Part shown: piece after piece, positions 40,598 through 41,965 of the stretch
Layout: each line of letters starts with the position of its first letter
Numbering within the stretch: position 1 is the first letter of the stretch
From: Dehalococcoidia bacterium
GTDB lineage: Bacteria; Chloroflexota; Dehalococcoidia; Lucifugimonadales; Lucifugimonadaceae
NCBI GenBank assembly: GCA_012959765.1
Contig: DUCO01000006.1
Span: 914 to 64,913 of the forward strand
DNA: 64,000 nucleotides
Direction of reading: 5' to 3'
Position numbers and translations under genes: made by a program
The notes under the pieces: generated by a model
What the model saw: the letters and a program-made list of their open reading frames with translations, nothing else
Told to the model about the DNA's origin: nothing
The model's database searches: none

Positions 40598-41080
40598 ATG
40601 GCACTTCAACCCGGTACTCAGGCCCCCGATTTCACCCTCGATTCTCATCTGGGCGAAGTTAAGCTGTCAGATCTTCGAGGCAAGACGGTTGTTATCGGCT
40701 TTCATCCGGCCAGTTTCACCGGTGGGTGACTGAACCAGGTGCGCGGGTTCCGCGCAAGTTACGATAAGTTCCAGGCTCTGAACACTGAAATCGTCGAGAT
40801 CAGCTGCAATACTCTGCCGGTTCAAAAGGCGTGGGTTGCCAGTATGACTGAGGACGATGACGAGGAAGAGGGGCATGTGCCGTTCCCGGTGGCATCTGAC
40901 TTCTGGCCGCACGGTGAAGTTACGAAGGCGTTCGATGTGTTTAACGAGGAGCGGGGCAACGCCAAGCGTTCGGTGTTCATTATCGATGGTGAAGGCACGA
41001 TTCGCTGGTCAAACGTGTATACCGACTCGATCCCGGCTTCAGGCGAGCTGCTGCACGAGATAGAGAGGCTTGTGCCTTAG
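40598..41080 (+). CDS. Peroxiredoxin with a probable selenocysteine (TGA) at the peroxidatic position
   Basis: From ATG 40598 the frame encodes MALQPGTQAPDFTLDSHLGE, the standard AhpC/TSA N-terminus, up to FHPASFTGG. It then meets TGA (40727-40729) and continues without interruption as LNQVRGFRASYDKF to the stop at 41080. TGA falls exactly where the peroxidatic cysteine of the PxxxTxxC motif belongs, making codon 44 a candidate selenocysteine in a 160-residue protein. A compact hairpin lies 10 bases downstream with the features of a bacterial SECIS. The rest (WSNVY near the end) matches the family. It would reduce peroxides in the cytoplasm. The alternative is a TGC-to-TGA mutation or base-call error. 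No sel genes are in the window. Confidence 0.78.
40740..40756 (+). promoter_or_regulatory. Candidate bacterial SECIS hairpin
   Basis: TGCGCGG (40740-40746) pairs perfectly with CCGCGCA (40750-40756) around the loop GTT. The loop begins with G, and its first base is 18 positions after the TGA. Both features fit the published bacterial SECIS rules (short apical loop, G in the first two loop positions, about 16-37 bases from UGA). Confidence 0.65.
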
Positions 41081-41095
41081 GCACGTATTGGTTAT

Positions 41096-41132
41096 CAAAA
41101 AGACCGGAGGGATGATCTCTCTGGTCTTTTTT
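41096..41132 (+). terminator. Terminator after the peroxiredoxin gene
   Basis: AAAAAGACC pairs with GGTCTTTTT across a partly paired inner region, followed by further T residues at 41127-41132. The symmetric A- and T-runs mean it could also serve the convergent aldolase gene. Confidence 0.85.
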
Positions 41133-41149: not shown

Positions 41150-41965
41150 CTAGTAGAACGTTCCACCGTCTTTGCTGTCATCGTCTAGTTGGCCCTCTAG
41201 CCCGGCCTTTACATCGGCAAGTTGCCCTTCGACGCCCATCTTGAGCATCCCGGCGTCTGAGCTGATTGGGAACCACTGCATGATCTGCGTGATACGTCGT
41301 CGGGACGACTCTTCGCCTGAAGCTGTGTGGGCGCCAGTGAAAACGCCATGACGTTTGCCTGCGTCAACGACCTTCTGAACGGCCGCGACGTGATCGGGAT
41401 GCTTGTTGTCGAGGCCGATCGGAACGCCCATGTTCTGTGCGAGGTCGTTGGGTCAGATGAAGCACACATCGACGCCTGGGACAGCGATGATCTCGTCGAT
41501 CTGGTCTACAGCTGCGGGATCCTCGATCATGATCACGACCAGCGTCATGTCGTTTGCCTTCTGGTAGAAACCGGGTCCGTATGCAATCTGTCCACGCGCA
41601 CTGCAAATTCCACGAATACCTTCGGGTGCGTACTTGGCAGCCTGCACAATTTCACGAGCCTGTTCCGCATTTTTTACATCTGGTGCCGCGATTCCCATGA
41701 ACCCGATATCGAGAATCCTCTTGATCCAAACTTTCTCGCCGTAAGGGGCGCGGGCGAACATAGGAATGCCACTACCCTGCGCCGCCCGAAGGCAGTTGAC
41801 GGCGGTTGAGACATCGATGGCGTTGTGTTCAAAGTCGACTACGATCCAGTCGAGCTCGGTCGTGTAGGCAAGTACTTCGATTACCGACGGATCGCCGGTG
41901 GTCGACCATGTTTCGACGATCGCTTCGCCGCGTTTCATCTTGTCTATGACAGGATTTGAGTCCAC
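41150..41965 (-). pseudogene. HpcH/HpaI-type aldolase with an in-frame TGA
   Basis: Read through, this is a 271-codon class II aldolase of the HpcH/HpaI (2-keto-3-deoxy-rhamnonate aldolase-like) family: DWIVVDFEHNAID, FARAPYGEKVWIKR, GFMGIAAPDVKNAEQA and MIEDPAAVDQIDEI. At codon 171 the strongly conserved IGPxDLA motif reads I-TGA-PNDLA, so a glycine codon (probably GGA) has become TGA at 41453-41455. The frame on both sides is otherwise intact. Selenocysteine makes no sense there and no SECIS-like hairpin follows, so it is a nonsense mutation or a base-call error. Such enzymes cleave 2-keto-3-deoxy acids to pyruvate and an aldehyde, which would complement the dehydratases in this window. Confidence 0.8.

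Follow-up and report, generated by a model that had tools for sequence, protein, structure and literature searches.

A putative AhpE-like selenocysteine peroxiredoxin of SAR202 Chloroflexota with a SECIS-like hairpin conserved in its genus

PrxU of Eubacterium (Peptoclostridium) acidaminophilum is a bacterial peroxiredoxin that carries selenocysteine (Sec). Sec peroxiredoxins with a TxxU motif are already known from marine metagenomes, with counts of 43 for the Sargasso Sea and 253 for the Global Ocean Sampling set (PMC1088965, PMC2398784), and a 2026 review places Sec peroxiredoxins ahead of its 'predicted' group (PMC13188914). The Chloroflexi, for their part, were credited with three selenoproteins in a 2006 survey (PMC1794560). 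The gene described here adds another candidate to the TxxU proteins, and its genomic setting and sequence tie it to a particular lineage and a particular branch of the peroxiredoxin family.

The window that we analyzed, a 64,000-nucleotide stretch of a Dehalococcoidia genome, appears to derive from a SAR202 member of the genus of Candidatus Lucifugimonas; its closest named loci are found in SAR202/Dehalococcoidia MAGs and in Candidatus Lucifugimonas marina JH1073, whose chromosome sequence is complete (CP046147) and in which the match occupies the same contig position as in G013, a genome assigned to the genus of the window genome. The peroxiredoxin gene (Table 1) is a continuous frame in which a single TGA, at codon 44, is the only internal stop, and the frame 3' of this codon is open, intact and conserved. 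The TGA sits within P-A-S-F-T-G-G-U, such that P37-xxx-T41-xx-U44 reproduces the PxxxTxxC/U pattern and residue 44 occupies the position that is Cys in homologues. These features, on which the original prediction of a selenoprotein was built, proved exact on recheck. A profile search assigns the protein to the Pfam AhpC-TSA family (PF00578) with a score of 110.7 bits (cut-off 26), and P37, T41, U44 and R124 are invariant in the alignment. Taken together with the evidence below, the gene almost certainly encodes a 160-residue AhpE-like Sec peroxiredoxin in which UGA-44 would be decoded as Sec through SelB and a hairpin immediately downstream.

Table 1. Positions of the peroxiredoxin locus and of other features discussed in the text; unprefixed positions are those of the window.
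Feature	Position	Strand	Remarks
Predicted Sec-containing AhpE-like peroxiredoxin gene	40598..41080	+	160 aa if TGA encodes Sec; start ATG at 40598, stop TAG ends at 41080
In-frame TGA, putative Sec codon, peroxidatic residue 44	40727..40729	+	TGA in 17/17 genus homologues; Cys in Cys-type homologues
Bacterial SECIS-like hairpin	40740..40756	+	7-bp stem TGCGCGG (40740-40746) / CCGCGCA (40750-40756), loop GTT (40747-40749); fits published model; lowest synonymous diversity in gene
Terminator-like hairpin 3' of peroxiredoxin gene	41097..41132	+	-21.8 kcal/mol, z -5.2 vs shuffles
HpcH/HpaI aldolase gene	41150..41965	-	TGA at 41453-41455
tRNA-Sec directly behind thioredoxin gene	C25:18095-18610		L125, G000:C25:15000-18882
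Two FYRGGW-U-xYC proteins	C18:71859, C34:14119		In-frame TGA
Lipoprotein-like FYRAYW-U-TFC protein	C29:26097		SelL-related, sub-cut-off score
WASW-U-AC protein	C40:24882		Related to ResA-like WAxxUGC family, sub-cut-off
Thioredoxin/NHL-repeat-like protein, C-U-INC	C40:89428		In-frame TGA
Tandem SelW-like genes, CVPU beside CVPC copy	C4:33022 and 33387		L141 and L142, G000:C4:33022-33602

The hairpin begins 10 nucleotides after the TGA, and its loop, which has G as the first residue, lies 17 nucleotides from that codon; every coordinate given for it in the original prediction was recovered. The consensus for bacterial SECIS (bSECIS) elements specifies a loop of 3-9 nucleotides with a G within the first two positions, an upper stem of 4-16 base pairs, a UGA-loop distance of 16-37 nucleotides and a minimum free energy (MFE) of -7.5 kcal/mol or lower (PMC13188914). 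With a loop of three nucleotides, a stem of seven base pairs and an MFE of -11.1 kcal/mol for the stem-loop alone (-12.0 kcal/mol over 42 nucleotides), the window hairpin satisfies this model throughout, which bears out the claim that it has bacterial SECIS geometry. Rfam scans at gathering and permissive thresholds gave no SECIS family match at the peroxiredoxin gene, an unsurprising outcome given how variable bacterial SECIS elements are.

A selenoprotein gene implies that its host carries the machinery for Sec, and this expectation held. The window genome (2.6 Mb, 92% complete) contains selA (511 bits), selB (320 bits against a cut-off of 242; the C-terminal end of the SelB model is matched separately as well), selD (371 bits; this gene, too, has an in-frame TGA, close to the N-terminus) and selC, a tRNA-Sec with anticodon UCA (66 bits). 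Thus selB and selC, whose absence was to count against the prediction, are both present. The tRNA-Sec gene is located directly behind a thioredoxin gene. A second above-threshold tRNA-Sec match, on C40, was rejected as tRNA-Ser(GCU). Across 100 related genomes, the TGA form of the peroxiredoxin occurs in 66, accompanied by selA in 58. The eight relatives with the TGA form and no detected selA are all only 61-86% complete, and all TGA-carrying relatives with a completeness of 90% or more have a detected selA. The association between the TGA peroxiredoxin and selA gives a Fisher p of 0.004 when relatedness among the 100 genomes is ignored.

The peroxiredoxin is not the only gene of this kind. 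One in-frame TGA is present in six of the 15 AhpC/TSA-family matches of the window genome, the window peroxiredoxin among them, and when redox genes and selD are considered together the genome holds at least eight candidate selenoprotein genes. In the seven besides the window peroxiredoxin, the TGA falls at Cys/Sec positions. Most of the TGA genes have a stable hairpin behind the TGA, with MFEs of -10.5 to -19.9 kcal/mol over 45 nucleotides, and that of the SelW-like gene is weaker (-7.6 kcal/mol). The tandem SelW-like genes form a natural Cys/Sec pair. Searches with AhpD-like PF02627, DsbA-like PF01323, thioredoxin PF00085 and PF13911 yielded no further TGA genes.

By itself the hairpin is modest evidence, given a chance occurrence of about 1%: an equally stable, model-conforming hairpin arises in 23 of 2000 synonymous-codon shuffles and is found behind 16 of 2154 codon positions of neighbouring genes. 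It is the comparative evidence that makes the case strong. The shuffles lend some credit to the idea that the hairpin is a codon-bias by-product of the peptide V-R-G-F-R-A, with UGA being translated through near-cognate read-through or as Cys. However, the TGA and the hairpin are kept at the same place in all 17 homologues of the genus, whose members other than the window protein are 72-86% identical to it, and the synonymous sites within the hairpin have hardly changed, unlike those in the rest of the gene. Specifically, synonymous diversity among the 17 sequences is 0.06 in the six hairpin codons versus 0.49 in the remaining gene, the lowest value of 152 six-codon windows (Mann-Whitney p = 4e-5). 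Moreover, homologue L070 carries a single two-sided compensatory change, in which A-T replaces G-C as the second stem pair, both sides being altered, with an accompanying Ala to Val substitution; two other homologues lengthen the stem to eight base pairs. Given the near-invariant synonymous sites and the compensatory change, we consider the by-product idea very unlikely.

An error of sequencing or assembly, or a nonsense change in a pseudogene, could likewise place a TGA within a frame, and a private TGA of this sort exists only 372 bases away. The HpcH/HpaI aldolase gene has an in-frame TGA where all covered relatives encode Gly, with no stable hairpin behind it. We rejected it as a Sec codon, and it is a private nonsense change or an assembly error, in contrast to the putative Sec TGA. 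For the peroxiredoxin, such an origin is extremely improbable, since the TGA stands at the same codon in all 17 genus genomes and the remaining frame is intact and conserved. One of these genomes is the complete sequence of the cultured isolate JH1073 (82% identity), which answers the concern about sequencing error and stands in for raw reads. A genome-wide reassignment of TGA to an ordinary amino acid would account for in-frame TGA codons in several genes, yet TGA is the ordinary stop of 10 of the 39 long genes in the window, which argues that no such reassignment has occurred. The in-frame TGA codons also coincide with Cys/Sec positions in redox proteins and in SelD, and the genome carries a full Sec system, so we regard reassignment as next to impossible. 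Insertion of Sec at codon 44 is the reading that we retain, and TGA conservation, the hairpin, its protected synonymous sites and the Sec machinery all support the original proposal of a selenoprotein.

Beyond the 17 genus members, 51 further SAR202-related sequences have the TGA form, and for these the assignment of a SECIS element is less certain. A model-conforming hairpin with a shuffle p below 0.1 is present behind the TGA in 17/17 genus sequences and 22/51 of the others, and at the corresponding place in 0/12 Cys homologues; a strict hairpin without bulges at -7.5 kcal/mol or better occurs in 10/51 of the TGA homologues outside the genus. Folding z-scores are lower in these more distant TGA sequences than in the Cys ones (p = 0.0004). 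Because hairpin sequence and position turn over outside the genus, conservation of this specific predicted element is claimed for the genus only. Five sequences from one other genus of the family (L091, L093, L099, L101 and L104) share a post-Sec stretch NQLGIL..IR and a different hairpin around GGATCC-TYGG-GGATCC, as if the SECIS element had been rebuilt together with the changed protein sequence.

The original prediction also looked for TGA/TGC alternation at codon 44, with the hairpin kept only in TGA versions. The second part stands, in that model-conforming hairpins do not exceed chance in Cys forms, but the Cys set includes many paralogues, so the pattern is not a clean swap between orthologs. 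When the Sec label is mapped onto a tree built from 81 homologues, five changes are required, compared with a mean of 12.3 for shuffled labels, and a few Cys forms, such as G083 (TGT) and one L094 copy (TGC), are nested among Sec forms. In 23 of the 51 Sec homologues outside the genus (including L082, L086-L090, L092, L097, L100, L102, L107 and L110-L113), the Pro of PxxxTxxC is replaced by Val, Ile or another residue. Loss of this normally invariant residue hints at an altered active site.

We infer the following course of events from the locus and its machinery. SelB, Sec-tRNA(UCA) and GTP would bind the hairpin just behind UGA-44, with the result that Sec is inserted there instead of termination. 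Sec-44 would then attack H2O2 or an organic hydroperoxide and become a selenenic acid. The position five residues after the peroxidatic residue is Cys in 7/12 Cys homologues. Every one of the 17 genus sequences has Arg there, and other Sec sequences almost always have a residue other than Cys, with L079 as an exception. The aligned part of 31/68 Sec homologues has no cysteine at all, and Cys70 of the window protein is not conserved within the genus. Since there is no conserved second cysteine, the enzyme should act as a 1-Sec peroxidase restored by an outside thiol. Thioredoxin, a low-molecular-weight thiol or another redox protein encoded in the genome, for instance the SelW-like one, might fill this role.

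The TGA form of the enzyme appears to be the rule across SAR202, a large ocean Chloroflexota group, and the standing of this group as a broad selenoprotein-using lineage seems to be new. The SAR202 papers that we consulted do not treat selenium, the term matching only an author's name, and a full-text search of open-licence literature, judged by titles and counts and thus able to miss a report, pointed to no description of selenium use in SAR202. We are evenly divided on a wider proposal: that an old AhpE-like clade, made up largely of Sec forms, is present in SAR202 and related Dehalococcoidia and constitutes a distinct 1-Sec subfamily, often cysteine-free and in 23/51 cases outside the genus lacking the canonical Pro, and that this clade belongs to a so far unreported selenoproteome, comprising at least eight genes, of ocean bacteria that are aerobic and inhibited by light. 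SAR202 is a widespread and abundant dark-ocean lineage whose peroxide defence probably relies on selenium, and standard gene calling cuts such genes off at the TGA. Selenium dependence can be tested directly in the cultured relative Candidatus Lucifugimonas marina, which is aerobic and light-inhibited.

Among described proteins, the window protein is, by sequence and predicted structure, most like the 1-Cys AhpE peroxiredoxins. Its best sequence match is Mycobacterium tuberculosis AhpE (Rv2238c; E 2e-21), and its predicted fold (pLDDT 91) superimposes on that protein with a TM score of 0.88, an rmsd of 1.9 and 32% identity. Both share the SDFWPHG...VFNE stretch and lack a resolving Cys at +5, whereas the window protein differs in its putative active-site Sec in place of Cys and in an acidic loop, around residues 83-93, that is longer. 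In the 81-homologue tree, M. tuberculosis AhpE falls beside Cys paralogues, next to the Sec clade, with weak support (88/17). The NCBIfam model for PrxU (NF040737) is longer, at 233 positions, and scores the window protein at 77 bits, far below its cut-off of 270, which places the window protein on another branch. With the known bacterial TxxU Sec peroxiredoxins the window gene shares the Pfam family PF00578, the TxxU motif and, as proposed here, the recoding mechanism; unlike the metagenomic examples, it is tied to SAR202 Chloroflexota and to the AhpE-like branch.
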